NCBI RefSeq assembly: GCF_026230195.1
Contig: NZ_CP036501.1
Location: 2,232,001-2,296,000 of the forward strand
Source: Candidatus Paraluminiphilus aquimaris
GTDB taxonomy: Bacteria; Pseudomonadota; Gammaproteobacteria; Pseudomonadales; Halieaceae
Length of the DNA stretch: 64,000 nt
Reading direction: 5' to 3'
Both the position numbers and the translations under genes were made by a program. Below, one piece after another: positions 27,670 to 44,944 of this stretch. Each line of letters starts with the position of its first letter. The first letter of the stretch is position 1. The notes beneath the pieces were generated by a model. The model was not told the DNA's origin and made no database searches. It was given only the letters and a program-made list of their open reading frames with translations.

Positions 27670-28677
27670 TCAGACGAACGTGCGCAAACCTACTGCGTGT
27701 CTCACCTTATCTAAAAGCGCTGCACTCTGTGGTCTGAGGCGCTCAGCACCCGCCTGTAAAACGGCTTCAACTTCTTGAGGGTTGGCCATTAGCCGGTCGT
27801 ACTCATCCCGTGCAGGCGCTATTTCATCGTTAATGCGCTCAAATAGGCGTTTCTTCGCCTCACCCCAGGCAAGACCGCCCTCAAACGCTTCGCGCATCTC
27901 CTGGCGTTCGGCCTCGTTGGCAAATGCGCACCAGATCTGGAAAACGGCAGAGGTGTCTGGATCTTTTGGCTCGCCGGGCTCAAGCAAATTGGTCTTTATT
28001 TTATTGATACCTTTTTGCAGTTTTTTGGGCGTACTGAAGAGTGGAATGGTATTGCCATAACTCTTACTCATTTTACGCCCATCAAGCCCTTGCAAGACCG
28101 CAACCTCATCATCCACCACAGCCTTCGGTAGCACGAAAGTCTCTCCGTAGTGGTGATTGAAGCGCGCTGCAATGTCCCGTGCCATCTCAACGTGCTGAAT
28201 CTGATCGCGCCCCACAGGAACGTCATTTGCGTTGAAAATTAATATATCCGCCGCCATGAGGATCGGGTACGAAAAGAGTCCCATTGTAATGGCGTGATCA
28301 GGATCCTCCCCTGCCTCCTCGTTTGCCTGCACCGATGCTTTGTAGGCGTGCGCCCGGTTCATCAGACCTTTGGCTGCATTACAGGTGAGAATCCAGGACA
28401 GTTCCGTGATCTCAGGGATGTCTGACTGTCGATAAAAGTGAGCTGACTCGTGATCAAGCCCCAAAGCTAGCCAAGTCGCCGCAATCTCCCTACTGGACTG
28501 AGCAACTAAGGCAGGGTCTTGTGACTTGATGAGGGCGTGGTAGTCAGCAAGAAACAAATACGCATCGACATCTTCGCGTTGTGACGAGGCTATCGCAGGA
28601 CGTATGGCACCAACATAGTTTCCTAAGTGTGGCGTACCTGTCGTGGTGATCCCCGTTAATACACGATGACGTGCCAT
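27670..28677 (-). CDS. trpS: Tryptophanyl-tRNA synthetase
   Basis: Charges tRNA-Trp with tryptophan; class I synthetase, cytoplasmic, 335 residues as usual. The HIGH-like motif is TPHLGN (15-20) and the KMSKS motif is intact at 202-206. [15 protein letters not shown] lies near 156-170. A 147-bp gap separates it from uppP upstream, and I see no attenuator or T-box in that gap. Confidence 0.97.
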
Positions 28678-28824
28678 CTAAACCTTCCCCAGTGCTGCCG
28701 CCCCATCAACACATTAGGGCGAGCAATTGTCTTTAATTTGGCGAGATTGTAAGAGCCAGCATCCATTTCTACCAGTATTTCCGCGTGGAGCGCCCCCCAC
28801 AGTCTCCCACGCATACGGCGAGAT

Positions 28825-29631
28825 CTAGGTGGCCGACGCCACCAACAGAAGTGCCACAGCCAGCAAGACCCGGTACACCACGAATGGCATCATACCGACA
28901 CGCGTTACCAGTCCTACAAAAAAGGCAATAGTCATATAGGCGCTAATACCAGCAATCGCCATCGCCGTTACCGTCTCAAAAATCAAACCGGCGTCTAGGG
29001 CATTGGTTTGAGTGACGAGCATAAGTAGCAAGGCGCCACCAATGACAGGAATCGATAGCAAGAACGAAAATCGTGCTGACGTCGCGATGTTGTAACCGAG
29101 AAATGACGCAGCCGTAATGGTGATTCCTGATCGTGACGTGCCCGGAATGACGGCGAGGGCCTGCGCCAGCCCGATAATAAGCGCATGATCTACACGCGTA
29201 ATTGACTGCTCATCTCCGTCCGAACCGCGAAAACGATAAGCAACCCCCAGCAGGATGCCAAAACCCAGGGTCGCCCAAGCGATTGTTGTCAATCCGCGCA
29301 AATGCGCATCGATAAACTCCATGAACAAAAAACCGACCAACATAACGGGTAAGGTGGCTATTCCGAGACACCCTATTTCCCGCAAAGCGCCGGCAGAGGC
29401 AACGGCATCATTTCGCCGCGTCACAGCGAATAGAAGTTCTTTCAATGTGCTTCGGTAATAAATAAGCACCGCGAACAGTGTTCCCGCGTGAACAGCGACA
29501 TCGAACGCCAGGCCTTGATCAGACCAACCTAAAACCTGCGAAGGTAAAATGAGGTGTGCTGAGCTCGATATGGGCAGGAATTCACTGAGTCCTTGGATTA
29601 AAGCCAGTACGACCAGCTGAACGGTATCCAC
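28825..29631 (-). CDS. uppP: Undecaprenyl-diphosphate phosphatase
   Basis: Integral membrane enzyme (BacA family) that dephosphorylates undecaprenyl diphosphate, recycling the cell-wall lipid carrier. The 268 residues carry the conserved GLSEFLPISSSAHL near the N-terminus and PGTSRSGITITAASFLGY in the second half, plus about eight hydrophobic helices. The start is GTG at 29631, overlapping the tsaB stop (TAGTG), so translation is coupled to tsaB. Confidence 0.96.
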   Translation of the reverse strand: MDTVQLVVLALIQGLSEFLPISSSAHLILPSQVLGWSDQGLAFDVAVHAGTLFAVLIYYRSTLKELLFAVTRRNDAVASAGALREIGCLGIATLPVMLVGFLFMEFIDAHLRGLTTIAWATLGFGILLGVAYRFRGSDGDEQSITRVDHALIIGLAQALAVIPGTSRSGITITAASFLGYNIATSARFSFLLSIPVIGGALLLMLVTQTNALDAGLIFETVTAMAIAGISAYMTIAFFVGLVTRVGMMPFVVYRVLLAVALLLVASAT

Positions 29632-30353
29632 TACGCTTTTTTCCCCTGCTCTGAAAGTTTTTTCCAGCTAATGTCTTTCTGCACATACCGGGGCTCCAAT
29701 TGAGCCGCGTCGAGGAGTACAGAAGGGTCAATGCTATCAAGAAACGCAAGGGCTGCTCTCGACGGTCTCGGCCGAGCCTCGCCGAGTAACTCAACATCGC
29801 AGAGCCCCGCATGACTCTCGAGAAGTAGATGACCGCCGTCACCTGCAATCGCAAAAACATCACCCGACTGAGCCAGCGCTTGCCCACCGGGCCCAGTTAC
29901 CTCTGAAGGGATACTGACCGTAGGGCCTTTCAATTCCGCGACACCCGTCGCCGTCATTTCAAACCACGCCCAGTACACCTGACCAATTTGTGCATCCATA
30001 ACGCTTAAAATGCGCGATCCAACGGGTCGCGAGACCGATTGAGCCTGAGATGCCAAGGAACAAACAGGGAGAACAGGAACATCGAGAGACCAACCCAAAC
30101 CCTGTGCCACACCCACAGCCACACGGATCCCAGTAAACGAGCCAGGACCGACACCACAGAGTATTAGATCGATATTACCTACAGCCCGCTCACCCAGCGC
30201 CTCATCAATCATCGTTAAAATGTGCTGATTGTGTGCTCTGGGAAGGTCACGTTGTATTTCGATGACATTCTCCTGCGAAATCACCGCGACGGAACACAGA
30301 TTCGTCGATGTATCGAGAGCGAGAACAGTCGGGTTATCAGGCAGATCCTTCAT
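29631..30353 (-). CDS. tsaB: tRNA t6A biosynthesis protein TsaB
   Basis: Partner of TsaD in making N6-threonylcarbamoyladenosine on tRNA; cytoplasmic. Starting at ATG 30353 gives 240 residues, the family length. A longer frame to 30494 would overlap DUF3429. Typical segments are VLALDTSTNLCSVAV, GPGSFTGIRVAVGVAQGLGW and RILSVMDAQIGQVYWA. It lies between the DUF3429 gene and uppP on the same strand, probably one operon. Confidence 0.95.
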   Translation of the reverse strand: MKDLPDNPTVLALDTSTNLCSVAVISQENVIEIQRDLPRAHNQHILTMIDEALGERAVGNIDLILCGVGPGSFTGIRVAVGVAQGLGWSLDVPVLPVCSLASQAQSVSRPVGSRILSVMDAQIGQVYWAWFEMTATGVAELKGPTVSIPSEVTGPGGQALAQSGDVFAIAGDGGHLLLESHAGLCDVELLGEARPRPSRAALAFLDSIDPSVLLDAAQLEPRYVQKDISWKKLSEQGKKA

Positions 30354-30406
30354 GGCGCGCAATACTCGCACACTGCGCAAAAATAAGCAGTGGTTAACCC
30401 TACCTT

Positions 30407-30841
30407 TTACGCACCAGTAACGTGTAATCCGACAAAAATAATATGCGCAACGACCACCCCTAGCGTCAATCGCTGTCGCATGCGCTGATACCAAAGCTCA
30501 AGTGACGATATGCGTCGTTCGTACCAAAGCAATGCCATGTAACCCAACATCAAAAACACCGCTGCCATCATTGCCTGTGCAGTAAGGATTGCAGCAACAC
30601 CGAACAGCACCAGGCCATTACTTACGATCAACGTACTCACAGCACCGTCGGCTTTAACGGTTTGAACCTGTCCCCACAGAGCCCCGGCCAAAAACGCGAA
30701 GATGCCTAGCGAGTAAATAATAAAGCCCTGAATGGAGAGCGATCGAGGCCAATCCTCGAGCGAGCTAAAACCAAGACAAAAGCCGAAAAAGGGAACTAGA
30801 CCCGCATAGCCTAACAGCTGGGAAATTAGTCGACTGGACAC
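30407..30841 (-). CDS. DUF3429 membrane protein
   Basis: A 144-residue integral membrane protein with four to five helices: LLGYAGLVPFFGFCLGF, FIIYSLGIFAFLAGALWG, VSNGLVLFGVAAILTAQA, MAAVFLMLGYMALLWYE and LGVVVAHIIFVGL. The layout and the FAFLAGALWG motif fit DUF3429, whose function is unknown. Its start overlaps the DUF3833 stop by 16 bases, so the two are coupled. Confidence 0.88.
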   Translation of the reverse strand: MSSRLISQLLGYAGLVPFFGFCLGFSSLEDWPRSLSIQGFIIYSLGIFAFLAGALWGQVQTVKADGAVSTLIVSNGLVLFGVAAILTAQAMMAAVFLMLGYMALLWYERRISSLELWYQRMRQRLTLGVVVAHIIFVGLHVTGA

Positions 30842-31380
30842 TCGACCGTTACCTCTGGATGACGAATGATAGTGAGCAGAATACCACCTACGGGCAGACC
30901 AAATTTCGTTAGCGTGGACTCATTAATTAATACGTTCTCGCTGACCCGATACATTCGATCATCGACTGCGACATCGATTGAGCCGTCTTCGAGTTCAATA
31001 GTCAAAACGTAATCCAGGAACATCGAGTTACCCGAGAGTGTTGCCCTGCCCTCGCCACGCACGTCCCCCGCCGTCGCCGCGTACGAACCATCAGCAGACT
31101 CAGTGAGTCGCCAGACTCGTGTTTGATTCTCGCCATCGTCAAAGACGAAACGCTCATCGAGCGTGCCCACACCGTTCTGCCAACAAGCGGTGATATCCGC
31201 AACAAACGAGCGGCTCGCATAACCTCGATAATTCTTAACAACACCGTGCGCCGTCAGTGACCCGTCGAAAAATGACTCCGCGGAAAATACGGGTCCTCTA
31301 CCCTCGTACTCCTCGACACCAACACCCGTGCAAGCGCTAAGTGTTACCGCCAACAACAGCAGTACTATTGTTTTCCGCAT
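30826..31380 (-). CDS. DUF3833 lipoprotein
   Basis: A 184-residue lipoprotein: signal peptide ending in the lipobox LSAC (Cys17), so it is anchored to a membrane on the periplasmic side. The FDGSLTAHGVVKNYRGYASRSF-type segment and the beta-rich rest fit DUF3833. Function unknown. The ribosome site GATGGAG lies just ahead of the ATG. Only about 33 bases separate the ATG from the T-run of an upstream terminator-like hairpin, so its promoter must lie within or upstream of that hairpin. Confidence 0.87.
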   Translation of the reverse strand: MRKTIVLLLLAVTLSACTGVGVEEYEGRGPVFSAESFFDGSLTAHGVVKNYRGYASRSFVADITACWQNGVGTLDERFVFDDGENQTRVWRLTESADGSYAATAGDVRGEGRATLSGNSMFLDYVLTIELEDGSIDVAVDDRMYRVSENVLINESTLTKFGLPVGGILLTIIRHPEVTVECPVD

Positions 31381-31413
31381 TTTCTACTCCATCTTTTTGA
31401 CATACGTTTGGGC

Positions 31414-31443
31414 AAAAAAAACCCCGGTCAATGATGACCGGGG
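31414..31443 (-). terminator. Terminator-like hairpin ahead of DUF3833 gene
   Basis: On the minus strand: CCCCGGTCA, a four-base loop, TGACCGGGG (31443 down to 31422), then eight T. Perfect 9-bp GC-rich stem. It points into the DUF3833 gene about 33 bases downstream. Confidence 0.75.
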
Positions 31444-31447
31444 AATC

Positions 31448-31471
31448 AAAAAACCATCTGGGGGAAGATGG
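31448..31471 (-). terminator. Second terminator-like hairpin, same direction
   Basis: On the minus strand: CCATCT, a six-base loop, AGATGG (31471 down to 31454), then six T (31453-31448). It is preceded by a small hairpin CTTGG-TTT-CCAAG (31484-31472). It stands only four bases ahead of the next terminator-like stem. Confidence 0.55.
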
Positions 31472-31558
31472 CTTGGAAACCAAGTAAGGTTGCGATTGTT
31501 ACGACCCTGAAAACTGGGTGGATCACCAATTTATTCGGCCAGTGCGTAAAATATGAAC

Positions 31559-31588
31559 AAAAAAAGGGCGACCCGAGGGCCGCCCTTT
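31559..31588 (-). terminator. Intrinsic terminator of TonB receptor-lipoprotein operon
   Basis: Minus strand: stem GGGCGGCCC/GGGTCGCCC with one mismatch (31585 to 31566), then seven T. It starts about 23 bases after the stop codon of the lipoprotein gene. Confidence 0.8.
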
Positions 31589-31608
31589 CCTGAGTTGCTG
31601 CTTGGTAC

Positions 31609-34455
31609 TTAAAGCGAACCTGGAACTGTCCAGCCAGCCCACCAAGGGTTCGAGCCGTCGGGGTTCACAGCACCGATGAAGTCAGTCGCGTCGAGGAAGC
31701 TCGTATTCGCAGTTGACTCCGGGTATGCCGCGTTGATTTCAGTCCAGTTAAGCGGTGCAGCGAGTACCGCCTCTGCAGCTTGCGAAGCAAGGATCGCGTC
31801 AAGCGCAGGTGCAACAACAACCATTGTTGCGTTACCTACAGCGTCAGCGCCCGCTTCACTATCCGCAGACACCAACAGACCGCCACTGCCGTCGTTCGCA
31901 CAGTCTTGAATCCAGTTGTTGAATACAAGCGCTGTGTTGACGTTAGCACCCGCGCCGCCTGTGATTCGTGCACAAGACTCGAAGGTATTAGGTGTATCAG
32001 CCGCGACCGTTGCAACGACGTTGTGGAAGAAACCGCCTGACTTCTTCTTGAACTGCATAATGAAGGAGTCATCGTTAGCCTGCTTGTTAGCGATAATGGT
32101 TACGTTAGACACGGTTGGCTTAGACAAAGGCTCGTCCGCGCCTTGAGTATCCATCTCGAACGCTTCACCACTGCCCTCAGCAGACTGCTTAACGATCACG
32201 TACTGCATGTTGCCTCGATAGGCCTCGTCCCAGTCGACTGAATCGTCACGTGCGCCAGTTACAACAGCGTACTTAACGTTGACATCACCGCCATAGAACT
32301 CAATGCCATCGTCCGCATTGTCGTGGACTTGGATGTATGACATCTCTGTACCACTACCAACGCCGTTCAGCGACAGGCCGTTGATTTCGTCACCGTCCGC
32401 ATTGATCAGGTAACCACCTTCAGCAATAACAACGTACTTGAGCGTACCGCTGTCGTCGTTTCGTGTTTCACCGTTAATTTGACCAAATCGCCCAGCACCG
32501 CCTTCGGCAGTGATGTTACACAGGTCATCAGTACAGGTGTTGTGACGACCGAAACCAGAGATGATTAAACCACCCCACTCAAATGGGCCGTCTAAACCTT
32601 CGTCTTCCGAGCTGAAGATAATTGGCGCTGTCGGTGTACCCACGGCTTCGATGTTCGCACCGCGGTTGATCTGCAATACCGCCGCAGTTTGAAAAGTGCC
32701 GTCAGATGCTTCGAGCCCCTTAACCTCAACACCCGCTTCGATAGTCAACGTCGGTGTAGTGAGCTCAGCACCGCCTTGCGTGAAGCCTTGTGCGTCGAGA
32801 GTTTCGGCACCATTGCCGAACTGAACACGCCCGTTGAGTGTGTAAGTGTTACCTGCAACTAACGTCATGTCGTCGTTGTAGATACCTTGGAGCTCACAGA
32901 CGTTGTCTGCAGTCTCTGTAGTACCTGCAGGACACTCGATTGCAACAGCTTCTGGCGTGCCTACTGAACCTGCGATAGTCCAGCCGTCCCACCAAGCTGT
33001 GGTTGCGTCTGGGTCAACCGCACCGATGTAGTCCGTAGCGTCGAGGTAATCGGCGTCAGCAACAGACTCGCTGAACGATGCATTAATTGCAGCCCAGTCC
33101 ATCGCTTCCGAGAGCTTGGCAGCCTCAGCCGTAGCGGCCGCAAGCGAGTTCAAGTTGGCAAAGGTAACAGTGACGTTTAGTGCGGCACCACCCATATCAA
33201 CCGTTGCAAGTACACCCTGATCACCCGGTGCGTTAGCACAATCCTGAATCCAGTTATTGAACACGAGTGATGTGCCAACGTTCGCTTCGGATCCGCCCGT
33301 AATGCGTGCACACGTGTCAAAGGTGTTTGGCGAGTCCGCATCAACCGTGGCGACCACGTTGTGGAAGAAACCACCGGACAACTTTTTGAACTGCATGATG
33401 AACGAGTCATCGTTAGCTTGCTTGTTCGCAATGATTGTTACGTTCGATACCGTTGGCTTGGACAGTGGCTCGTCTGCGCCCTGTGTATCCATCTCGAACG
33501 CCTCACCGCTGCCTTCTGGAGACTGCTTGACCACGACGTACTGTAAGTTGCCTTGGTAACCCTCATCCCAGTCGATAGAGTCATCACGCGCACCCGTCAC
33601 CACGACGTGCTTCGCGTTTACATTACCGCCGTAAAACTCGATGCCGTCGTCCGCGTTGTCGTGGACTTGCAGGAACTCAATCTCAGTGCCGTTACCAACA
33701 CCATTTAGCGACAGCCCATTGATCTCGTCACCGTCAGCGTTAATCAAATAACCACCTTCTGCGATGACAACGTACTTGAGCATGCCACTGTTATCGTCAG
33801 GTGTTGATCCAGAAACTTGGCCAAAGATCCCCGCACCACCTTCGGCAGTGATATTGCAGATTTCATCATCACAGGTGTTGTGCGGACCAAAGCCGCTGAC
33901 AATTAGGCCACCCCATTCGAATGGGCCTTCATAACCCTCGTCTTCCGAGCTGAAGATTATGGGATCATCAGCTGTGCCCACAGCCATAATGTTGGCGCCC
34001 CGGTTAATTTGAAGTACGGCGGCGGTTTGGAACGTGCCGTCTGAGGCGCTCAGCCCCTTGACCTCGACACCGGGCTCAATTGTGAGTGTTGGTGTGGTCA
34101 GAGCGTCACCATTTTCGAGTGTTGTCGCCGATGACATGCGCGCAGCGCCATTACCAAACTGAACGCGACCGTCCAGTGTGTAGGTATTTCCGGCTACCAA
34201 GGTTAGGTCTGTCTCGTATGTACCGGTGAGTTCGCAAATATCGGTCGATGTTTCTGTTGTGCCCTCGGGACAAGGGACATCGTTGGGCTCTGGTTCGGGC
34301 TCGGGTGCGGGTGCTGGCGCGGGAGTCCCCCCCGATCCACCATCGTTTGTTGGTGCCTCGATAATAATCGTTGTATCTCCTCCTCCGCCGCTGCAACCGC
34401 TGAGTCCTACCAGGGCTCCAGAGGCGAGTAGCGCCATCACTAACTGCTTATTCAT
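31609..34455 (-). CDS. Lipoprotein with two tandem beta-helix units
   Basis: A 948-residue lipoprotein: signal peptide with lipobox LSGC (Cys21), a glycine/proline/glutamate-rich linker (about 22-58), then the same unit twice, residues 60-497 and 506-948, at a constant offset of 446. Residues 314-358 are identical to 760-804. Each unit looks like a right-handed parallel beta-helix (repeated EGGYLINADGDEINGLSL, DNADDGIEFYGG, GARDDS) with six cysteines at matching positions: C62, C74, C195, C200, C382, C406 and their copies. Family members are often annotated only as hypothetical or misnamed multidrug transporters. AGGAG precedes the start, and the TonB receptor ends 47 bp upstream. Role inferred: surface-exposed partner of that receptor. 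Confidence 0.87.
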   Translation of the reverse strand: MNKQLVMALLASGALVGLSGCSGGGGDTTIIIEAPTNDGGSGGTPAPAPAPEPEPEPNDVPCPEGTTETSTDICELTGTYETDLTLVAGNTYTLDGRVQFGNGAARMSSATTLENGDALTTPTLTIEPGVEVKGLSASDGTFQTAAVLQINRGANIMAVGTADDPIIFSSEDEGYEGPFEWGGLIVSGFGPHNTCDDEICNITAEGGAGIFGQVSGSTPDDNSGMLKYVVIAEGGYLINADGDEINGLSLNGVGNGTEIEFLQVHDNADDGIEFYGGNVNAKHVVVTGARDDSIDWDEGYQGNLQYVVVKQSPEGSGEAFEMDTQGADEPLSKPTVSNVTIIANKQANDDSFIMQFKKLSGGFFHNVVATVDADSPNTFDTCARITGGSEANVGTSLVFNNWIQDCANAPGDQGVLATVDMGGAALNVTVTFANLNSLAAATAEAAKLSEAMDWAAINASFSESVADADYLDATDYIGAVDPDATTAWWDGWTIAGSVGTPEAVAIECPAGTTETADNVCELQGIYNDDMTLVAGNTYTLNGRVQFGNGAETLDAQGFTQGGAELTTPTLTIEAGVEVKGLEASDGTFQTAAVLQINRGANIEAVGTPTAPIIFSSEDEGLDGPFEWGGLIISGFGRHNTCTDDLCNITAEGGAGRFGQINGETRNDDSGTLKYVVIAEGGYLINADGDEINGLSLNGVGSGTEMSYIQVHDNADDGIEFYGGDVNVKYAVVTGARDDSVDWDEAYRGNMQYVIVKQSAEGSGEAFEMDTQGADEPLSKPTVSNVTIIANKQANDDSFIMQFKKKSGGFFHNVVATVAADTPNTFESCARITGGAGANVNTALVFNNWIQDCANDGSGGLLVSADSEAGADAVGNATMVVVAPALDAILASQAAEAVLAAPLNWTEINAAYPESTANTSFLDATDFIGAVNPDGSNPWWAGWTVPGSL
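31612..32940 (-). repeat. Second copy of the duplicated lipoprotein unit
   Basis: Encodes residues 506-948. It aligns with 32965-34278 at a constant 1338-base offset over much of its length. Amino acids are kept while many third codon positions differ, so the duplication is not recent or both copies are under selection. Confidence 0.85.
32965..34278 (-). repeat. First copy of the duplicated lipoprotein unit
   Basis: Encodes residues 60-497, starting at the CPEGTTET motif and ending at the WWDGWTIAGS motif that also closes the second copy (WWAGWTVPGS). Confidence 0.85.
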
Positions 34456-34502
34456 CTACATTCACTCCTAATGGAAATGGTTTTCGCTGGTTTGGTGCTG
34501 CT

Positions 34503-37500
34503 CTAAAGTTTCCAGTCGATACCGACTTGAAAACTTGTTCCTCGTTCGTACTGCTGGAAAACCTTGCCTCCCTGCGAGTACTCGTAATCTTCATTCAGTA
34601 AATTGTTAACCTTTGCGCGCACTGATAGCGCTTCGTTAACGTCCCACCGATAGACCAATTGCACGTCGAGTCGTGGTTCTAAAATGACATCTGCTGCGCC
34701 CTGAATTCCGCGATCGGCAACCGTTTTACCGTTCTGGTTGAGCAATAAAGTCACCTGCTGCTCTGCCGCAAAATCGTCGTAGCCAAAGACAATGTTGGCT
34801 GTGTAGTCGGGTTGACCCTGCATAGCGCGAATCACGCCGCCGCCGATGTCAACTTCGGACTCGATAGATGCCGCGTTGAAATCGATAAAGATCTCGGAGT
34901 CAAAGTCGTCCGAGAGCGAGAATGAAATCCGCCCTTCGACTTCAATACCGTTAAGTTCTGCAAGATCAGAGTTTTGGAACGTACGCGCGTTGGCTGCCGT
35001 GCCCGAAGCTGCGATCACGACTCGCTCAATAGCGTCCTCGATTTCTTTGTGAAATAAAGCGACGGAAATGCTGTTACCTGCGTCCTCGTCGAAGTACCAC
35101 TCCCAGCGAATATCGGCATTGGTGATGGAAGAGGTTTGGAGAAATGGATTACCAAAGACCTGAGCGCCGAACTCAAGATCCTGGTAGTAGGCATTCGCCG
35201 TCTCTTTAAAGTCTGGACGCGCAATCGTCTCACTCAATGCGACTCGAAGCTGTTGATCATCGGTAAACGACCAGTTCACGCCAAAATGCGGCAGTGGCGT
35301 GATTTCATCGATAACAGACTCCACGGGTTGACCATTGAAACTGCTAAAAGTCTCGGTAGTCTGAACGTACTCCTCAAATCTGATGCCTGTGATGACCTGC
35401 CATTCCAACCCAAGCGTATGGTCATAGAGCGCGTAGGCGCTGTTGTAGGTAAGGTCCGCACCATAATTATCAGAGGGAAGCGTTGACTCCGTGAAGGTGA
35501 GGCCGCGCGTCACTGAACCCTGGACACCACCTATAACGGATGGGTCATTACTCGCCGCGTAAACCACGTCCGAGACGACCCCATTAGGCGCCGCTAATAT
35601 GTCCCCTGCCAAGATCGTGGAGTAGCCATAAATGGCCGCTTCTGCCTCTCGATCGCGCTCAATGGCACTGAGTCCCATCTTCAATGAACTAAACGAGTCG
35701 CCATCGTCGAAAACATCCCATGTCAGATCGAATGAGAGTTCGTCGTTGTTATCGACCAAGTTATTGAAGCGTCGATTGCTACCGCCGTAGTTGAAAAAGA
35801 AGCCTGTGAACAAGTCACCCTGTGATGCATTCGTTGCACTAAAATCAAACCCGGCGACCAGGTCACTGCCCAGTGTCTGCGACTGACTTGCAATGAACGA
35901 AGAGTTGCGGCGATCAGGCACATCGCGTTCAGCTTGGCTTACGGTTGCTTGCCATTCGAGGAACAATGAACCGGATTCGTTGAGAAAGTGCGATCCGGCG
36001 ACCTGAGTCGAGGCATATTGACGCTCTTCCCACTGTACACTTGTGCCCACAACGGACCGGAACTCGTCACCCTCGACACCCACGTAGCGCTCAACGAAAG
36101 AGTCCGTCACGCGGGAGACAATGGTGTTCCATTCATAGGTACTATCTCCAATGCCCACGCCCACTGAAACCAAACCACTGACTTCAATGTTGTTGGTCGC
36201 TGTCTGATAGGTGAAGTCGTCCGCCACGATGTCAGAGCCACCGCCGTACGACCGGCGGATGCCATTCTGTCGTTGACTCCAGCTATTGGCATAACTGCCT
36301 GCAGCAAAGTAGCCGATCTCAGCGTCGCCGATGTAGAAGACATCACCAGCAGAGATACCCAAATCAATAGCCGGCGTCACAGACGCAGTGTCGGCATCCC
36401 AGCCATCCATCATCAGAAGACCAGCTGACTGTCGAAGTTGACCAGAAATGTAACTATCCACAACGAAGGTATTGCCGTCGCTGTCAGTAATGCTCCCTGC
36501 TTTGAGCGCGTCGGCAATAGCTGCAATTGCTCCGTTCTCTTCTCGCGTTCCATCATCCCAACCCAGAAAATCCGAATCGCCCTCCAGCGCGTCAACAGCA
36601 ACCGAGCTTCCAGTAAGGCCTGTAACGCCGCCCAACTGCACTGACAAGTCAATAAAGGCCTCATCAGGGAACGTCTTGGTGTTTATCACCAAATTGCCGC
36701 CAGTAGACTCACCCGGCATTGACGCCAGATAGGTCTTCTTAACGTCTAGCTGATTTACAAAACTTGACGGAAAGAGGTCCAATGGAACCGTTCGTCGAGA
36801 AGGGTTGGTTGAGGGCATGGCAGAGCCATTGAGGTTCGCCGTGACATAACGATCACCTAAACCCCGAATCACCACATACTTATCGTTCTGCACTGATACA
36901 CCAGGAACGCGTACGATCGATGCCGCCACATCACTGTCTCCGTAACGCGCGAGCTGCTCCACGCCAAGTGTGTCGACAATATTGCCTGTGTCTCGCTCGC
37001 TTAACTCAAAGGCGCCGGGATCAAAGCTACCCAGAACCACCACCTCTTCTAACTGCGGCCGCTCCAGCTCAAAAGAGATAGACTCACTCGCCAGCCTGAC
37101 CGAGAGACCTCGAGTCACTCCGGCGAAAACGCGGCTGGTGTAGCGATTGCCATCAACAGTTACTGTGTAGCGCCCGCGTGGCGCCTCAATCGTTGCTACA
37201 CCGTCCTCATCGGAGGCCGCTCGTCCCCCACCGTTGGACAAGTTGACGACAGTACCCGTTACGGGCGAGCCATCTCTTGTCACTGTAATTTCTAGACTTC
37301 CTTTGGGTTGATCGCGTCGCTCAGGAGCAGACTCTCTACTACCGTACACATCGACAAGCGGCGATGAGCCGGGGGCTAATTCGATCACGACATCGGCTAA
37401 TTGGCCTGATTCCAGGGCAAAGCGAACAACGCGTTGATCACCGCTCGCGTCAACAGCCACAACGTGGCCGCCTGCATTAAGGTCTGCCGTGAATGACCCA

Positions 37501-37670
37501 TCCAGTCGTGTGGTGCCAGCGACTTCACCGTCTATCGTAATCGTCGCTGAGCGCTGAGGCTGGCCGCCTTGGAAAACATAAAGTAAAAGTTCATCCTCGG
37601 CCGTGGCTAGTTGGGGTAACAACAACCCTGCCGTGATCAACAGCAGACGCGCTAACGTACTTTTTATCAT
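34503..37670 (-). CDS. TonB-dependent receptor with N-terminal Ig-like domains
   Basis: Outer-membrane transporter of 1055 residues. Signal peptide 1-24; two carboxypeptidase-regulatory-like beta-sandwich domains at about 27-98 and 125-195. A TonB-box-like EEVVVLGSF lies at 208-216. The plug, about 225-335, contains VPGVSVQNDKYVVIRGLGDRY and MPGESTGGNLVINTKTFP. The large barrel ends in a typical terminal aromatic strand (FQVGIDWKL). This form is common for uptake of larger organic substrates in marine gammaproteobacteria. It is followed at 47 bp by the duplicated lipoprotein. A Pho-box match lies 90 bp upstream of the start. Confidence 0.93.
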   Translation of the reverse strand: MIKSTLARLLLITAGLLLPQLATAEDELLLYVFQGGQPQRSATITIDGEVAGTTRLDGSFTADLNAGGHVVAVDASGDQRVVRFALESGQLADVVIELAPGSSPLVDVYGSRESAPERRDQPKGSLEITVTRDGSPVTGTVVNLSNGGGRAASDEDGVATIEAPRGRYTVTVDGNRYTSRVFAGVTRGLSVRLASESISFELERPQLEEVVVLGSFDPGAFELSERDTGNIVDTLGVEQLARYGDSDVAASIVRVPGVSVQNDKYVVIRGLGDRYVTANLNGSAMPSTNPSRRTVPLDLFPSSFVNQLDVKKTYLASMPGESTGGNLVINTKTFPDEAFIDLSVQLGGVTGLTGSSVAVDALEGDSDFLGWDDGTREENGAIAAIADALKAGSITDSDGNTFVVDSYISGQLRQSAGLLMMDGWDADTASVTPAIDLGISAGDVFYIGDAEIGYFAAGSYANSWSQRQNGIRRSYGGGSDIVADDFTYQTATNNIEVSGLVSVGVGIGDSTYEWNTIVSRVTDSFVERYVGVEGDEFRSVVGTSVQWEERQYASTQVAGSHFLNESGSLFLEWQATVSQAERDVPDRRNSSFIASQSQTLGSDLVAGFDFSATNASQGDLFTGFFFNYGGSNRRFNNLVDNNDELSFDLTWDVFDDGDSFSSLKMGLSAIERDREAEAAIYGYSTILAGDILAAPNGVVSDVVYAASNDPSVIGGVQGSVTRGLTFTESTLPSDNYGADLTYNSAYALYDHTLGLEWQVITGIRFEEYVQTTETFSSFNGQPVESVIDEITPLPHFGVNWSFTDDQQLRVALSETIARPDFKETANAYYQDLEFGAQVFGNPFLQTSSITNADIRWEWYFDEDAGNSISVALFHKEIEDAIERVVIAASGTAANARTFQNSDLAELNGIEVEGRISFSLSDDFDSEIFIDFNAASIESEVDIGGGVIRAMQGQPDYTANIVFGYDDFAAEQQVTLLLNQNGKTVADRGIQGAADVILEPRLDVQLVYRWDVNEALSVRAKVNNLLNEDYEYSQGGKVFQQYERGTSFQVGIDWKL

Positions 37671-38028
37671 CGGTGCTCCTCAAGCGATTAACACTCTCGA
37701 CTTCAGAGTGGCTTGGGCGAGCACTTTATTAACCGCAGATTACAAATTCCTTGCTGAAAGATGATTGTTTTATGACAACCGTTAAGTCGAAGATGATCAA
37801 ATACCGCTAACACATTGTTTTTTCGAGTCTTATATGCCTGTAAGGGCAATACAACGTCACAAAAACTTCACATGCACTGCACGCCAATCCGGTTAAAGTC
37901 CACGTGACCATCATGCGGATGCACTGCGCTTCATATCTGTCCGGTAACGGGAAAAATTCCGGCTGGTTTGAAACCCCAGATTGTGTTCAGCATGACGAGA
38001 TCTGCGACCTAAAGCAGCGGAGTTATGG
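37671..38028. other. Divergent intergenic region between TonB receptor and olsF
   Basis: 358 bp with no gene. It holds the promoter regions of two divergent genes and the Pho-box match at 37760-37778. Downstream of that box on the minus strand, TGTAAT (near 37740-37745) could be the -10 element, although the 15-base gap is longer than usual. A much weaker 11-bp-spaced repeat of GTCAC/TTCAC type lies on the plus strand at 37854-37872, facing olsF. Confidence 0.6.
37760..37778 (-). promoter_or_regulatory. Candidate Pho box (PhoB site)
   Basis: The minus strand reads TTGTCATAAAACAATCATC. Compared with the enterobacterial Pho box CTGTCATAWAWCTGTCAYY it agrees at 16 of 19 positions. The two half-sites (TTGTCAT, CAATCAT) are 11 bases apart, as PhoB requires. 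It lies 90 bp upstream of the TonB receptor start and faces it. The divergent ornithine-lipid gene, a known type of phosphate-starvation gene, adds support. Confidence 0.6.
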
Positions 38029-39768
38029 ATGCTTAACTTTCAAAACTTAGTGCAGCAGTACTTTCCTGAATTCGCGAGTCGCCATTCAAGGCTTGCCCGT
38101 ATTGCTGGAAATGCTTTGAACTTTTTATTTTTTCAAAGACGTTTCGAACAGTTTGATCGTGAATTCCCAGGGAGTGAGGGCTTTGACTTTGTTGAATCGG
38201 CGCTCACTTTTTTCAACTTCCAACTCCGTACACGAGAATCCGAGCGAGCACGGATCCCCACCACCGGTAAGGTAGTGATCGTTGCGAATCATCCGATAGG
38301 CTCACTCGACGGGCTCGCTCTCCTCCGCCTTATCCGGCAGATACGACCTGATGTAAAAGTTGTTGCAAACAACATGCTGATGCAAATAACACGCTTACAC
38401 CCCGTTCTCTTACCTGTCGACAACATGGGGGGAAAAACCGGCCGCAAGCATTTGTTAGCGATAAAAGAGCATCTCAACGATGAGTCTGCGCTGTTGATCT
38501 TCCCTGCAGGTGAGGTTTCGCGGTTCGGCGCCAAAGGTGTTCGAGACCCGGCCTGGCAAAGTGGTTTTATCAAGCTTGCCTCCGCCACCAGGGCACCGAT
38601 CCTGCCGATCTTCGTGGGTGGTCGAAACTCTGTCTTCTTTTACAGCCTGAGTTTCCTCGCAAAGCCGTTATCCACGGCCTGGCTCATTAGGGAGATGTTT
38701 AAGCAAAGTCACAACACAATCGATGCCCGCATAGGAAGCGCTATCCCGTACGAGGTTTACTCGGCAAACAAATTTTCCGCGACGACCTTGGCGGATATGT
38801 TTAAACAACATGTCTACCGACTGGCGAGAAATCGCAAACCGATTTTTGACTCAGTGGAAACGGTAGCCCCGCCGGAGTCGCCAGTGCTGATTAAGCGTGA
38901 GGTTTCGCTCTGCGAGCGTTTAGGTACAACGCCCGACGGTAAGCGCATTCTCCTAACGACGGCCCAGCAATCACCTTGCATCATGCGCGAAATAGGCAGG
39001 CTCCGAGAAATGACCTTCAGACTTGTCGGCGAAGGGTCAGGTGCGCCAAGAGATATCGATAGTTTCGACGATACCTATGACCAATTATTCCTTTGGGACG
39101 AGGGTGAATTGGAGATTGTCGGTGCCTACAGATTGGGCGATGCGCGCTTACTAACTGAACGAGGCGGAGTCTCGGCCTTGTATACAAACACGCTTTTTGA
39201 GTTTTCATCCTCGATGCAGTGCTACTTCGCACAAGGACTCGAACTCGGTCGAAGCTTTGTTCAGCCAAAGTATCAAACGCGCAACGCGCTCGATTACCTG
39301 TGGTATGGCATCGGCGCCTACGTATCGAAAAGAACTCACATTCGATACCTATTTGGCGCGACATCTATCTCGCGCTTTTACAGCCCAGAGGCCATAGCGC
39401 GGCTCGCGTATTTCTACTCAGAAAACTACAACAGCCTTCCCGTTGAGGTGCATCCTAGAACGCCTTTCATTATTTCCGATGAGGTCAAAGCAAAGCTTGA
39501 TACCGAATTTTTCGGAATCGACCGAGACGAGGACTTCAAGGCCTTAAAACATTACCTCGCATCGGAGGGTTTGAAGGTGCCGACGCTTTACAAGCACTAC
39601 TCACAAACAACCGAGGAAACTGGTGTTACCTTTTGCGCCTTTAATCGAGACCCGGACTTTGGTGATTGCGTTGATGGCTTTGTCATCGCGGATCTCACCC
39701 TGCTGAAACCAAAGAAAAAAGCCCGTTATTTGGGACACGACTGGTGTTATGAAGGAGAGCAAAGCTAA
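38029..39768 (+). CDS. olsF: Bifunctional ornithine lipid synthase, OlsF type
   Basis: A 579-residue two-domain acyltransferase. The N-terminal part (about 70-290) is a PlsC-like acyltransferase with NHPIGSLDG (His88, Asp94) and FPAGEVSR (159-165). The C-terminal part (about 295-579) is an OlsB/hemolysin-type acyltransferase with MREIGRLREMTFRL and SFDDTYDQLFLWD. OlsF of Serratia has this order, the C-terminal domain N-acylating ornithine and the N-terminal domain O-acylating the product. The result is a phosphorus-free membrane lipid made when phosphate is short. No transmembrane helix is evident. Divergent from the TonB receptor and its Pho-box match. Confidence 0.85.
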   Translation: MLNFQNLVQQYFPEFASRHSRLARIAGNALNFLFFQRRFEQFDREFPGSEGFDFVESALTFFNFQLRTRESERARIPTTGKVVIVANHPIGSLDGLALLRLIRQIRPDVKVVANNMLMQITRLHPVLLPVDNMGGKTGRKHLLAIKEHLNDESALLIFPAGEVSRFGAKGVRDPAWQSGFIKLASATRAPILPIFVGGRNSVFFYSLSFLAKPLSTAWLIREMFKQSHNTIDARIGSAIPYEVYSANKFSATTLADMFKQHVYRLARNRKPIFDSVETVAPPESPVLIKREVSLCERLGTTPDGKRILLTTAQQSPCIMREIGRLREMTFRLVGEGSGAPRDIDSFDDTYDQLFLWDEGELEIVGAYRLGDARLLTERGGVSALYTNTLFEFSSSMQCYFAQGLELGRSFVQPKYQTRNALDYLWYGIGAYVSKRTHIRYLFGATSISRFYSPEAIARLAYFYSENYNSLPVEVHPRTPFIISDEVKAKLDTEFFGIDRDEDFKALKHYLASEGLKVPTLYKHYSQTTEETGVTFCAFNRDPDFGDCVDGFVIADLTLLKPKKKARYLGHDWCYEGEQS

Positions 39769-40080
39769 AAAACTCATACGAAGTCAGAATCCTCTCTAAC
39801 CTTAAAGATGGCGCAGGAAACTCAAGATGACCCCCTCGTGAGAGTCATTCACTCGGTTTTTGCGCGCATAAATACCAGAGTCCGCCCGCATCGCTTCCCA
39901 TCCTCACAAAACTTTGCAAGTCTACGCCTATCAGGTGCCCTTCGGTCTGCACCTATCCCAGCCCTAGATTCCTTTAGGGCTCGTTACCTAACAACCCCAG
40001 TCTGGGCCGAGCCTCTACGTCATAGGTTGACTGTAGCTTGGCAAGACGATCCGCAAGACCACCTATTAGGATATTGATCT
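39769..40080 (+). other. Intergenic region, olsF to rhlE
   Basis: 312 bp. It contains an 89-codon open frame (39808-40077) with no good ribosome site and an Arg/Pro-rich product I do not recognise, so I do not call it a gene. A stem AGCCCTA/TAGGGCT with an eight-base loop at 39960-39981 lacks a T-run. It could be a 5' leader structure of the rhlE transcript; cold-shock helicase genes often have long leaders. Confidence 0.4.
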
Positions 40081-41388
40081 GTGTATTTTAAAGACCTCGA
40101 CCTGTCGTCGGAACTGCTGCGTGCTATTGAAAAAAAAGGCTACAGCGAAGCCACCCCAATCCAGCAAAAAGCCATCCCGCTGGTATTACAAGGCAAAGAT
40201 TTACTTGCCGGTGCTCAAACAGGCACTGGCAAGACCGCAGGTTTCACACTACCGCTGCTGCAACAACTTCAGAGAAAGTACCCAAATACCAAACACAAGA
40301 GTTACCCCAAAGTACTCATACTAACGCCGACGCGCGAACTCGCTGCACAGGTGCACGAGAGTGTTCGGGACTACAGCAGTTACCTCAACTTTCGTTCGGC
40401 GGTCGTTTTTGGTGGGGTGAGTATTAATCCGCAAAAGCAAAAACTTATTCGAGGCGTCGACATAATCATTGCAACACCCGGGCGGCTGCTCGATCACGTT
40501 CAGCAACGCAGCGTAGATCTATCAAGAATTGAAACGCTCGTACTCGATGAAGCCGATCGCATGCTTCAAATGGGGTTTATTCATGATATTCGTCGGGTGG
40601 TAAAAATCATACCCAAGCAACGCCAAACGCTGCTTTTCTCCGCCACGTTCTCTTCCGAGATAAAACGCCTTGCCGCTGATTTCCTGAACGATCCAAGCGA
40701 GATTCAAGTCACACCGGAGAACACGACTACCGAGCGTGTCAGTCAAGTGGTGTATCCCGTCGATAAGCGTCGTAAGCGCGAGTTGCTGTCACAACAAATA
40801 GGCGAGAATAATTGGCAACAAGTATTGGTTTTTACGCGGACCAAGCACGGCGCTAATCGATTGGCGACGCAACTCGAAACCGACGGTATTTCGGCCGCGG
40901 CAATTCACGGAAATAAATCTCAGGGGGCTCGCACTAAAGCTCTGGCCGATTTCAAGTCCGGTGCGGTCCGCGTGCTGGTGGCCACTGATATCGCAGCCCG
41001 CGGTATTGATATTCATAAGCTTCCCCATGTTGTGAACTACGAACTGCCCAATTCGGCTGAAGATTATGTGCATCGCATCGGTCGTACAGCACGTGCAGGA
41101 CAGACAGGCGGTGCCATCTCACTTGTCTGTGTCGACGAGCTAAAGCTGTTGAGCGACATTGAAAAGCTCATCGGCACCAAAATTGAGCAAGTGAAATTAC
41201 CGGGTTACGACGTGGACCCCACCATTAAACCAGAACCCATTCAAAACGGTCGTACAGGCCGAAGCAACGGCCGCCAAGCCAATGATCGGCAACCCGGGGG
41301 CAAGCGCTCTAGTGCTCAGGGTCGCGGCGCTAAGTCGGCTGGTCAAAAGCAGGGTCGATCTCGCAACGGTCGTGGGCGCGCAGCATAA
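40081..41388 (+). CDS. rhlE: DEAD-box RNA helicase RhlE
   Basis: ATP-dependent RNA helicase of 435 residues acting in ribosome assembly and RNA decay. GTG start at 40081. Motifs in order: Q motif ([12 protein letters not shown], 21-32), Walker A AQTGTGKT (45-52), PTRELA, DEAD in [28 protein letters not shown] and [10 protein letters not shown]. The C-terminal tail (about 375-435) is a basic Gly/Arg/Ser/Gln-rich region typical of RNA-binding extensions. Confidence 0.95.
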
Positions 41389-41407
41389 TGTTTAGGCCGG
41401 CGCTTAA

Positions 41408-42142
41408 ATGACCAGAGGGGTAACACTGTTGAACGAATTGTCTGTACGGTCTGTATCGTCCACTTCGCAACCCGCTGCGTTAGGGTTAAGAGTGGTGCCG
41501 TCGGATGTGCCACCATCGCGCACGGCAAGCGGTCGAGGAAAACTGAGTGTCGAACTGCGACGTCGAGCCTGTGCCTCGCTCCTATTTTGGCTGTGCGCGT
41601 GCTTTCTAACTGTTGTTTTAGGTGCAGGTGCATCAAGCGCGCGAGGGCAAACCGTGATGTTAGATAATTTTGAAAACGACCGCGGCTGGCGCGCGGTCAA
41701 TGACAACGTTATGGGAGGTCGCTCGCTGGGCCAGGTCATCGTGCGTGATGGGCGTCTGCAATTCGAGGGATCAATCAACACCCAAGGGGGCGGGTTTGCG
41801 TCCATTCGCAGAACCATTGAGGTGGGAGAGCTCCTCGGCGCTAAGGCCGTATCCCTGCGCCTGAAGGGCGATGGACGCCAGTACCGGCTGACATTGCGGG
41901 ATAATAAGCAAGTGAGAGGGCGTTCCGTGAGTTATCAGGCCGGTTTTTCAACGTCTCCAAAAGGTCAGTGGCAGAACGTCCGAATTGAACTCAACGGACT
42001 GCGAGCATCGTTATTCGGCCGGCCCATGGCTGTCGGCGAGGTGGATTTAGGCTCGGTTTGGTCAATCGGCATTATTATCGCCGATGGGCAGGATGGCCCG
42101 TTCGCACTGCAACTAGATAAGCTAGAGTTTCTGTTCGAATAA
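41408..42142 (+). CDS. Exported CIA30-domain protein
   Basis: Up to 244 residues. The mature C-terminal part (from about residue 83) has the CIA30 fold signature: DNFENDRGWRAVNDNVMGGRSLG, then GGFASIRRT and the beta-rich carbohydrate-binding-like body. It is preceded by a hydrophobic signal-like stretch (about 55-75, ASLLFWLCACFLTVVLGAGA). About 50 residues of polar, basic sequence precede that stretch, so the true start may be further in than ATG 41408; no ribosome site decides it. It is 19 bp after rhlE. Bacterial CIA30 proteins have no agreed function. Confidence 0.8.
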   Translation: MTRGVTLLNELSVRSVSSTSQPAALGLRVVPSDVPPSRTASGRGKLSVELRRRACASLLFWLCACFLTVVLGAGASSARGQTVMLDNFENDRGWRAVNDNVMGGRSLGQVIVRDGRLQFEGSINTQGGGFASIRRTIEVGELLGAKAVSLRLKGDGRQYRLTLRDNKQVRGRSVSYQAGFSTSPKGQWQNVRIELNGLRASLFGRPMAVGEVDLGSVWSIGIIIADGQDGPFALQLDKLEFLFE

Positions 42143-42352
42143 GCCGCTATCAGCGCAATGAATGCGCAGGACTGGTTGTTGAGATTACGTGATATCGGTT
42201 GGCGGGTACTGAGCGTTTCGATACCTATTGCTTCACCTTTTTTGCTCGCCCCACGAACCCGCAACATCCGTCTTGATATCGACTCTCCCAACTCCTCGCG
42301 GTTAGCCTCTGGTGGATGCGTTTGGTTGCGGTCCGAGCCCTAGTAAGACGCG

Positions 42353-42586
42353 CTAGACATTCTTCTGGCGCCCCGCTTTGGCGTCTCGACGGCCACGCTT
42401 GGTGAGCGGCACACCGTTGGCGTCGACCGTGCTCTTGGGTTTCTCACCTTTTGCTTTTTTGGATGCGCGGCTCAGTGTAATGAGTGAGAGCGTTTCTTGA
42501 TCACGCAGCTTGACCGCGTTTTTCTCCAAGGTATCCAGTTCCTCAAAACTGTAGAGGTCGTTTTTGAGTTTTTCTAGTCGATTCAT
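42353..42586 (-). CDS. Small basic protein of unknown function
   Basis: A 77-residue protein beginning MNRLEKLKNDLYSFEELD and ending in a Lys/Arg-rich tail (TKRGRRDAKAGRQKNV). The frame stays open upstream to 42763, but the upstream part looks non-coding. The ATG at 42586 has no clear ribosome site. Helical N-terminus, nucleic-acid-binding-like tail; no family recognised. Confidence 0.55.
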   Translation of the reverse strand: MNRLEKLKNDLYSFEELDTLEKNAVKLRDQETLSLITLSRASKKAKGEKPKSTVDANGVPLTKRGRRDAKAGRQKNV

Positions 42587-42718
42587 GGTGGCGGACTCAG
42601 AGGTATCGGTGGACGATGGATATCTGCGTTGCAGCACCCGAGACGCGCGCAACATACGGGGTTTTGTCCGCAAAGCGAAGCAGTTATTGCAGTTTCTCGG
42701 TGATGTCGATTTCAGGCG

Positions 42719-42871
42719 ATGACCAATATGACCAAAAATGAAAATTTCGACGGCGGCGCCCAAGGGTATCTTCCTCGCTCTTCCATTCGAGAGGCAGACG
42801 CAATCGGCGACGTCAATAACGGCGCAGAAGTCGAAAATAGCTCAACCCTGAATGAACCCAGCGAAAGGTAA
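42719..42871 (+). CDS. Possible small acidic protein
   Basis: A 50-codon frame, MTNMTKNENFDGG... to ...NEPSER, with CAGGCG just before the first ATG and eleven bases before a second ATG at 42728. Acidic and Asn-rich, no transmembrane helix or cysteine. I do not recognise it. It lies in an otherwise empty stretch of about 460 bp between the small basic gene and moxR. Could be chance. Confidence 0.3.
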   Translation: MTNMTKNENFDGGAQGYLPRSSIREADAIGDVNNGAEVENSSTLNEPSER

Positions 42872-43050
42872 ATCCGTCCCAGCACAGGGGTTTCGCATCC
42901 TGAATCTGCCAAAGAAATAATCTATGTCGACGCAACTCACGAATTTACCCGATAATGTCGTTAATAATTCATTGAGCGAAACTTTGAGTACTTGAGTTTG
43001 TCTCAGAATAGCCCCATGTTTTCGGGGACATCGCTGTAGGTAAGGAACAC

Positions 43051-44007
43051 ATGACACACGCTGCAATATCCGGTCTAGAAAACTGGCTCGGTCAACAAAT
43101 CATTGGTCAGGCAGACCTCGTTAGAAAGCTGCTCATCGCTATACTAGCCGACGGTCACCTATTGGTTGAGGGGGCTCCGGGACTTGCTAAAACCCGCGCC
43201 ATTAAGATGATGGCCGAGGGCGTTGAAGGCGATTTTCATCGTGTTCAGTTCACGCCGGATCTTCTGCCCGGGGATATCACCGGAACTGATATCTTTCGGC
43301 CACAACTTGGGACCTTTGAGTTCCAAGCCGGACCTATATTCCACAACCTTATCCTCGCTGATGAAATCAACCGCGCGCCTGCGAAGGTGCAATCCGCGCT
43401 GTTGGAAGCAATGGCCGAGCGACAAGTGAGTGTGGGGGGGACAACCTACCCTCTTCCACCGTTATTCTTGGTGATGGCGACCCAGAACCCCATCGAGCAA
43501 GAAGGTACCTATCCGCTACCCGAAGCGCAGCTCGACCGATTCTTGATGCACGTAAAAGTGGATTACCCCAATTCGAGCGCGGAGCGAGAAATTCTTAAAC
43601 TGGCGCGCAGGGAAGCATCGACAGGTGAATCTTTTGATCAGCCCGAAGTATCCGAGGCGACTGTTTTCGCTGCACGTGAAGAGGTGTTAAAGCTCCACAT
43701 GTCTGACGCGGTTGAGGAATACATCGTCCAGCTCATCATGGCCACCCGTCAGCCCGAGGCGTATGACGCGGAACTTGCGAGTTGGATCGAATACGGCGCA
43801 TCACCGCGGGCCACCATTGGGCTCGACCGGTGCGCTCGGGCCCATGCCTGGCTTTTAGGTAAGGACTTCGTAAGCCCCGATGACGTGAAAGCCATGGCCT
43901 ACGATGTATTACGACATCGGCTTGTGGTGAGTTACGACGGCGAAATTGCGGGCGTCACCTCCGACAGTGTCATCGATAAGTTGCTGGATCTCGTTCCCGT
44001 AGCGTGA
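43051..44007 (+). CDS. MoxR family AAA+ ATPase
   Basis: A 318-residue chaperone-like ATPase that, with a VWA-domain partner, matures or remodels other proteins. Walker A is EGAPGLAKTRA (40-50), Walker B is HNLILADEINRAPAKVQSALLEAM, and the sensor/Arg-finger segment QNPIEQEGTYPLPEAQLDRFLMH follows. It is the first gene of a six-gene plus-strand operon (MoxR, DUF58, DUF4381, BatA, BatBC, BatD), with a 10-bp gap to DUF58. AGGTAAGGAAC lies upstream of the ATG. Confidence 0.95.
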   Translation: MTHAAISGLENWLGQQIIGQADLVRKLLIAILADGHLLVEGAPGLAKTRAIKMMAEGVEGDFHRVQFTPDLLPGDITGTDIFRPQLGTFEFQAGPIFHNLILADEINRAPAKVQSALLEAMAERQVSVGGTTYPLPPLFLVMATQNPIEQEGTYPLPEAQLDRFLMHVKVDYPNSSAEREILKLARREASTGESFDQPEVSEATVFAAREEVLKLHMSDAVEEYIVQLIMATRQPEAYDAELASWIEYGASPRATIGLDRCARAHAWLLGKDFVSPDDVKAMAYDVLRHRLVVSYDGEIAGVTSDSVIDKLLDLVPVA

Positions 44008-44017
44008 GTTAGCTTGC

Positions 44018-44944
44018 ATGTTGGATTTTCTCCCCAAAGGTCACAAAGTCTCGGCAGAGCGACTCATAGAAGGTCGTCACGTCGCGCAGTCGATTAATAT
44101 CAACGCGCAATCAAAAGCGCTCGCGCTGCTTGCCGGGCGCCGTAAAATTCGCCAACGCGGACGGGGTGTCGACTTTGAGGAAGTGAGGCTTTATGCACCG
44201 GGAGACGACGTACGCTCGATTGACTGGCGCGTTACCGCACGCTCGGGCGATCCCCACACGAAGCTATTTCAGGAAGATCGCGAGCAACCTATTGTGCTGC
44301 TTGTCGATCTCCGCTCCCCAATGTGGTTTGGCTCCAAAAATTGCTTCAAGACCGTTCTAGCGTCGCACATCGCCTCTGTGCTCGCATGGGCGGGACTCGA
44401 TGCGGGGGAACGCGTCGGTGGTATCGCCATGACGAATTCAGGTCTCGTCGAAATAAAACCGCAGCGATCAAAACGATCCGTCTTGCGGTTGTTGCGCCTA
44501 ATGGAGTCAGCCCCCTCGCCCTCAGCTTCACTCGGTGATGATGCCCCAGATACATGGTCCGTCGCCTTGAGTCAGCTAAAAAGCCTTTCGCGGCCCGGTG
44601 CTCGACTTATGGTGATAAGTGACTTTACCGACCTACTCTCGGACACAACGGTCGAAAAGACGCTCCGCGATATCGTGAGCCACAGACAAGTGGTCTGCTT
44701 CAAAATAACCGACCCTTTGGATGCGGAGCTACCACCATCAGGGCGATACGCGCTAACAGACGGTAACAAACAGATTAAGATTGACACATCGATGCAACGC
44801 TTGCGCAACGCATACAAAGTTGACTTCGAAAAGTCCCAAGCTGCAGTCGTAGATTACCTTCGACGCTATCAAGTCCCATTGGTAACGGTTGATACCAGTG
44901 AAAATCCCAACGAACTGTTGCAAAGGGTGTTTCCAAAACGATGA
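44018..44944 (+). CDS. DUF58 domain protein of Bat operon
   Basis: A 308-residue soluble protein with the DUF58 signature: RRKIRQRGRGVDFEEVRLY and DVRSIDWRVTARSGDPHTKLF, followed by a vWA-like segment (PIVLLVDLRSPMWFG). In Bat/MoxR operons it is the steady partner of the ATPase. It overlaps the next gene by four bases (ATGA), which indicates coupling. Confidence 0.94.
   Translation: MLDFLPKGHKVSAERLIEGRHVAQSININAQSKALALLAGRRKIRQRGRGVDFEEVRLYAPGDDVRSIDWRVTARSGDPHTKLFQEDREQPIVLLVDLRSPMWFGSKNCFKTVLASHIASVLAWAGLDAGERVGGIAMTNSGLVEIKPQRSKRSVLRLLRLMESAPSPSASLGDDAPDTWSVALSQLKSLSRPGARLMVISDFTDLLSDTTVEKTLRDIVSHRQVVCFKITDPLDAELPPSGRYALTDGNKQIKIDTSMQRLRNAYKVDFEKSQAAVVDYLRRYQVPLVTVDTSENPNELLQRVFPKR

Follow-up and report, generated by a model that had tools for sequence, protein, structure and literature searches.

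In marine Gammaproteobacteria, the passage of phosphate and other phosphorus compounds through the outer membrane at very low concentrations is, to our knowledge, poorly understood. A locus in the window (the whole 64-kb stretch of DNA that was analysed, from a 2.72-Mb genome) bears on this question. It carries the genes of a TonB receptor, a duplicated lipoprotein and a divergent ornithine lipid synthase, all named in an initial annotation and all present, together with the Pho box reported between them (Table 1). Does PhoB control the receptor and the lipoprotein, and if so, what do the two proteins carry?

Table 1. Positions of the features discussed, in window coordinates
Feature	Position	Strand	Remarks
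Intrinsic-terminator-like stem	31560..31591	-	14 pairs, T tail, just past lipoprotein stop
Lipoprotein gene	31609..34455	-	948 aa, lipobox LSGC
TonB receptor gene	34503..37670	-	1055 aa
Divergent intergenic region, receptor/OlsF	37671..38028	.	358 bp
Pho box TTGTCATAAAACAATCAT	37761..37778	-	90 bp upstream of receptor start, receptor-facing; 13.5 bits
Weak OlsF-facing Pho-box-like site ACGTCACAAAAACTTCAC	37854..37871	+	9.0 bits; may be chance
OlsF, bifunctional ornithine lipid synthase	38029..39768	+	579 aa; NF052615 762 bits (cut-off 620), residues 1-568

The receptor contains the plug and beta-barrel domains of a TonB-dependent transporter. From the N- to the C-terminus it consists of a signal peptide (called by eye), two beta-rich domains, an EEVVVLG stretch that we take to be TonB-box-like, the plug and the barrel. 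The second N-terminal domain is CarboxypepD_reg-like, with a score slightly below the Pfam cut-off. The stem behind the lipoprotein gene is the longest of 10 terminator-like sites in the region, where 6.1 are expected from shuffles. Because the two genes lie on the same strand, are separated by a gap of 47 bp and are followed by this stem, an operon of these two genes alone is most likely. A simple scan upstream of the receptor found no sigma-70-like promoter, which fits an activator-dependent promoter without proving anything. The neighbours in the window are ordinary (a tRNA synthetase, BacA, a TsaD-type protein, DUF3429, DUF3833, a DEAD helicase, CIA30, a MoxR-type AAA protein and DUF58). 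The DUF3833 gene (30826-31380, minus strand) encodes a further lipoprotein and is situated behind the operon; members of its cluster occur in 11 loci, the window among them. The Halieaceae MAG MED611 (L133) carries a near-twin of the pair, with a 100% identical receptor and a 99% identical lipoprotein. The locus is also present in the cultured Halieaceae strains Haliea salexigens and Pseudohaliea rubra.

In the lipoprotein, the lipobox is followed by a long Gly/Pro/Glu linker and two tandem domains, which were modelled as tandem right-handed beta-helices at approximately residues 60-498 and 506-948 (pLDDT 88.2, pTM 0.62). A Pfam scan of the protein gave nothing above cut-off, and Beta_helix PF13229 was matched in 2 of 55 aligned members. 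The two halves are 71% identical (314/444). In a set of 51 two-domain lipoproteins (the window and loci of L133-L211), the halves within one protein are 56-83% identical, and identities to the window across species are 35-59%. A quick tree of the halves placed the N and C halves as sisters in 8 of the 51 and split the remainder within clades; by our own count from this tree, there were about 15 separate duplications or homogenisations. Four-fold sites are 39% identical between the window halves, so the duplication is old in this protein; in L186 they are 73% identical and the halves share an exact tract of 72 bases. The sole explanation we offer for the repeated duplication is selection for a doubled binding surface.

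The Pho box reads TTGTCATAAAACAATCATC on the minus strand. Its half-sites, TGTCAT and AATCAT, are spaced 11 bp apart as initially described, and by our count 3 of its 18 positions depart from the classical Pho box. We scored it with an 18-bp matrix trained solely on phoB and pstS promoters from 21 loci of the same order (30 of 36 upstream regions were used). It is the best match in the window. The organism's own phoB, phoR and phoU each score above curated cut-offs (TIGR02154 for PhoB), and the phoB box, at 19.3 bits, is the top site in the 484 kb sampled from this genome. In that sample (18% of the genome) 9 sites reach at least 13.5 bits and the window site is tied 8th, while among shuffled promoters of 450 bp, 0.85% score 13.4 bits or more. 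Taken alone, the window site is moderate and would not convince.

What makes the box convincing is that its position and orientation are conserved in relatives, the comparison that the initial annotation had proposed. We fetched 79 named loci, 71 of which were testable for the pair promoter. A box of at least 12 bits was found in 54 of the 71; of the intergenic control promoters in these loci, 44 of 369 contain one, and among shuffled promoters the share is 1.3%. The other 17 fall below this threshold; L135 and L138, in which OlsF lies beside the pair, score 4.8 and 8.0 bits only. When each receptor cluster contributes one value, 26 of 38 clusters at 70% identity and 18 of 28 at 60% reach 12 bits. 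The box faces the operon in 48 of the 54 promoters, and 4 of the remaining 6 boxes are located where the pair and a divergent phoB have a promoter in common. It precedes the first gene in both gene orders, reaching 12 bits in 27 of 38 receptor-first and 27 of 33 lipoprotein-first loci. Scores of 17.0 bits in G280, a member of the same genus, and 18.0 bits in G040 were obtained. G280 has neither PstB above cut-off nor a full OlsF, possibly owing to assembly gaps.

The flanking genes point in the same direction. Genes of the pst or pho (phoBR) group occur in the fetched flanks of 25 of the 79 loci and in none of 20 control stretches of the organism's own genome. In four loci (L070, L180, L185 and L186) the pair lies directly behind pst-phoU genes on the same strand, with PhoU and PstA confirmed by family in L180. 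Together with the promoter comparison, this supports well the earlier proposal that PhoB controls the receptor and the lipoprotein, and such control is probable on these comparative grounds. In a tree of 73 receptors, built quickly and with long branches, the receptor-first clade (39 rows) separates cleanly from the lipoprotein-first clade (33 rows), with a single change of gene order. Behind the pair in L082 lie DUF3450, two ExbB, ExbD, TonB and TPR genes. Clusters including such genes occur in 13-19 loci, some of which are the same genome fetched twice, and these genes are likely a private energiser of the pair.

Several other genes were observed near the pair. In L071 (14207-15667) and L072 (4312-5775) a fusion of a PBP_like_2 phosphate-binding-type protein with OmpA is divergent from the receptor; its domains were scanned in L071. 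A Porin_4 gene in L182 (15557-16513, minus strand) has a Pho box of 21.1 bits; it separates the pair from pstB, and its cluster occurs in 11 loci. A small gene of Haliea and Pseudohaliea (L134:16950-17371, L172:12601-13021, L157:12594-13013 and L154:12595-13014) has its own Pho box of 15.4-23.3 bits. It encodes 114-173 residues as called, with starts that are probably too far upstream in L154 and L157; Pfam gave no match for it in either L134 or L172, and in L172 it is followed by a DUF3833 gene. The L166 contig is labelled as a Flavobacteriaceae MAG, and its receptor groups among Porticoccaceae rows. The match in the L166 group genome has a start coordinate identical to that in G159 of the same order, and the Flavobacteriaceae name looks wrong.

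OlsF ornithine lipid synthases occur in, for example, Vibrio cholerae. The window protein is likewise a full-length fusion above the curated cut-off, which bears out its first description as a PlsC-OlsB fusion. In Halieaceae, OlsF is a recurrent divergent neighbour of the pair, and it differs from other OlsF enzymes in being divergent from a TonB receptor, without a strong Pho box facing it. We surveyed the 11 intergenic regions in which OlsF is divergent from the receptor and adjoins it. A receptor-facing box of at least 13.5 bits is present in 9 of them, whereas no OlsF-facing site in the 11 exceeds 9.0 bits, the best being in L133. Across the order, the linkage of OlsF to the pair is weak (33/97 versus 41/196). 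Since the box faces the receptor and the OlsF-facing sites are weak, the suggestion that this box also controls OlsF could not be established. We read OlsF as a physiological neighbour of the pair and a candidate for PhoB control. In Halieaceae L137, OlsF, a PHO4-family transporter and a calcineurin-like phosphoesterase are divergent from the receptor, and L139 has the same genes (PHO4 by family scan, phosphoesterase by clustering). The best model for the L137 PHO4 protein is a sulfate permease, with a score far below cut-off, and those for the phosphoesterase are LpxH-type, also below cut-off; the latter may have a PlcP role.

The pair has relatives in print. In Caulobacter crescentus, elpS/cc0170, cc0171 and type II secretion genes are arranged together, and that study suggests that their co-occurrence reflects a functional interaction (PMC2996285). 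In two of our alphaproteobacterial loci, L189 (Henriciella) and L190 (Sphingomonadales), a lipoprotein-receptor pair lies directly before gspC, gspD and gspE. The window lipoprotein aligns with the L189 and L190 homologues over residues 62-944 at 34-35% identity; with L204 included, the identities are 33-35% over both halves (E 8e-117 to 2e-123) and those of the receptors are 29-31% (E 2e-42 to 1e-93). Because these homologues show the published ElpS/Cc0171 arrangement, sequence comparison suggests that the window pair is a gammaproteobacterial variant of this known low-phosphate system. The homology was judged through the homologues linked to type II secretion and not through ElpS itself. Both systems have a low-phosphate surface lipoprotein, by prediction in the window and, in Caulobacter, by detection of ElpS at the cell surface under low phosphate (PMC2996285).

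The variant differs in several respects. The window order is receptor first. Its receptor has two extra N-terminal domains, which the lipoprotein-first L066-L068 lack, as does the receptor-first L071. A single box is placed to drive both window genes, whereas cc0171 of Caulobacter was described as constitutive; deletion of cc0171 did not suppress ElpS production there (PMC2996285). No type II secretion genes were found among the 13 window neighbours scanned (27673 to 44941), and the organism's own GspC is located far from the pair (C1:1340052). We filed the pair as a variant because the published type II secretion linkage is a feature of Caulobacter and of certain other genomes.

Similar pairs are described in Flavobacterium johnsoniae, where PUSIII comprises the TBDT Fjoh_3857 and FI Fjoh_3856, and PUSIV, within the phoBR operon, the TBDT Fjoh_0545 and FII Fjoh_0546 (PMC8115612). 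According to that paper, the receptors beside these lipoproteins are strongly induced by low phosphate, the lipoprotein is likened to a polygalacturonase, and FI-III have a relative in Caulobacter, a lipoprotein inducible by low Pi (identity 31-36%, coverage 50-54%) (PMC8115612). The window shares with them a TonB receptor, in its case predicted to respond to low phosphate, beside a lipoprotein of polygalacturonase-like fold, a likeness by description only, and the Flavobacterium systems are those of Bacteroidetes. The published PhoB regulon of Caulobacter includes TonB receptors and the secretion system (PMC11208175). In contrast to the partners in the BtuB-BtuG and SusCD importers, the window lipoprotein is a beta-helix, and neither it nor any of the 55 aligned members has a SusD-family Pfam match. 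In a search of mainly open-access papers, we did not find a description of a gammaproteobacterial Pho-box-driven pair, nor of its linkage to pst/phoBR, to OlsF or to private TonB genes. The kind of system is therefore already known from print, and its Pho-box-driven gammaproteobacterial version is apparently new.

With moderate confidence, we propose that the locus is a two-gene operon activated by PhoB, in which a TonB importer works with a surface lipoprotein that captures a phosphorus-bearing ligand. When phosphate is scarce, PhoB would activate both genes from the box, a step for which the comparative support is strong. The receptor, to judge from its modelled fold, would act as a TonB-powered outer-membrane importer. 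The lipoprotein is a plausible surface partner, as first suggested, given its lipobox, its long linker and the surface location of ElpS (PMC2996285). Displayed on its flexible linker, it may present a conserved acidic ladder along the two stacked beta-helices and capture the ligand directly or via Ca2+. Aspartates 269/270 and 291/292 are conserved in the protein. It could then hand the ligand to the receptor, by analogy with SusD or BtuG and theirs. Phosphate, freed or imported, would be taken in by PstSCAB. The divergent OlsF would make phosphorus-free ornithine lipids and thus be a phosphate-sparing neighbour.

The cargo was initially thought to be an organic phosphorus compound. This was not established: pst or phoBR genes are located near the pair in 25 of the 79 loci, which makes inorganic phosphate no less likely a cargo. 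The organism's own genome has PhoX and a pst-phoBR locus, and no Porin_O_P was found in it, so it is reasonable to suppose that phosphate or a small phosphate compound enters actively. Of 23 genomes with the pair that were searched, 17 contain Porin_O_P; the pair is therefore no simple replacement for it, and the two are not exclusive. A bolder version of our proposal, which we put forward only tentatively, is that the pair is a dedicated, widespread TonB-powered importer of phosphate (or a small phosphate ester) in Proteobacteria. It would be the active outer-membrane step that feeds PstSCAB, with the beta-helix lipoprotein as a calcium-bridged phosphate trap, alongside or instead of the passive Porin_O_P.

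Other functions within the Pho regulon can be envisaged. The lipoprotein could be an accessory factor or an enzyme through which phosphate is liberated extracellularly, by activation of a phosphatase or by cleavage of a phosphorylated polymer, with the receptor as importer of the product or as sensor. Overexpression of ElpS raised extracellular alkaline phosphatase activity in Caulobacter, but ElpS itself had no phosphatase activity and deletion of elpS left the activity unchanged (PMC2996285). The fold matches to the window lipoprotein, which are alginate epimerases, polygalacturonases and tailspikes, would suit an enzyme, and PhoX adjoins the pair in G106. However, this is the one genome with a phosphatase beside the pair among partly annotated neighbours, and the frequent phosphate neighbours are pst and phoBR. 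We consider phosphate release unlikely.

Less probable still is that PhoB controls the pair only incidentally and that its cargo is a polysaccharide or a metal chelate, imported for some other reason. Carbohydrates are often the substrates of TonB receptors of this type. Glycan binding is frequent among beta-helix proteins, and since the fold is common to many polysaccharide-acting enzymes and tailspikes, the ligand of the lipoprotein may be a glycan; in SAR92 L185 the gene behind the pair encodes a GH81 domain at its C-terminal end. On the other hand, the box and the linkage to pst/phoBR are seen repeatedly in both receptor clades, and no carbohydrate enzyme family appears among the recurrent neighbour clusters that were annotated, a subset of all clusters. 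A chance match to the Pho box at a locus outside phosphate regulation, which the tied eighth-place score, with nine sites at or above it in the sampled part of the genome, might suggest, is highly improbable in view of the enriched homologous promoters, their consistent orientation and the score in the same-genus relative.

Our preferred reading, a PhoB-activated importer with a surface capture protein, makes the pair a concrete and testable candidate for outer-membrane passage at low phosphate, with a Pho box in most lineages tested and pst/phoBR genes adjoining about a third of the loci. It ties ElpS, the present family and probably the Flavobacterium PUS lipoproteins into one system. The pair also suggests new markers of the Pho regulon.
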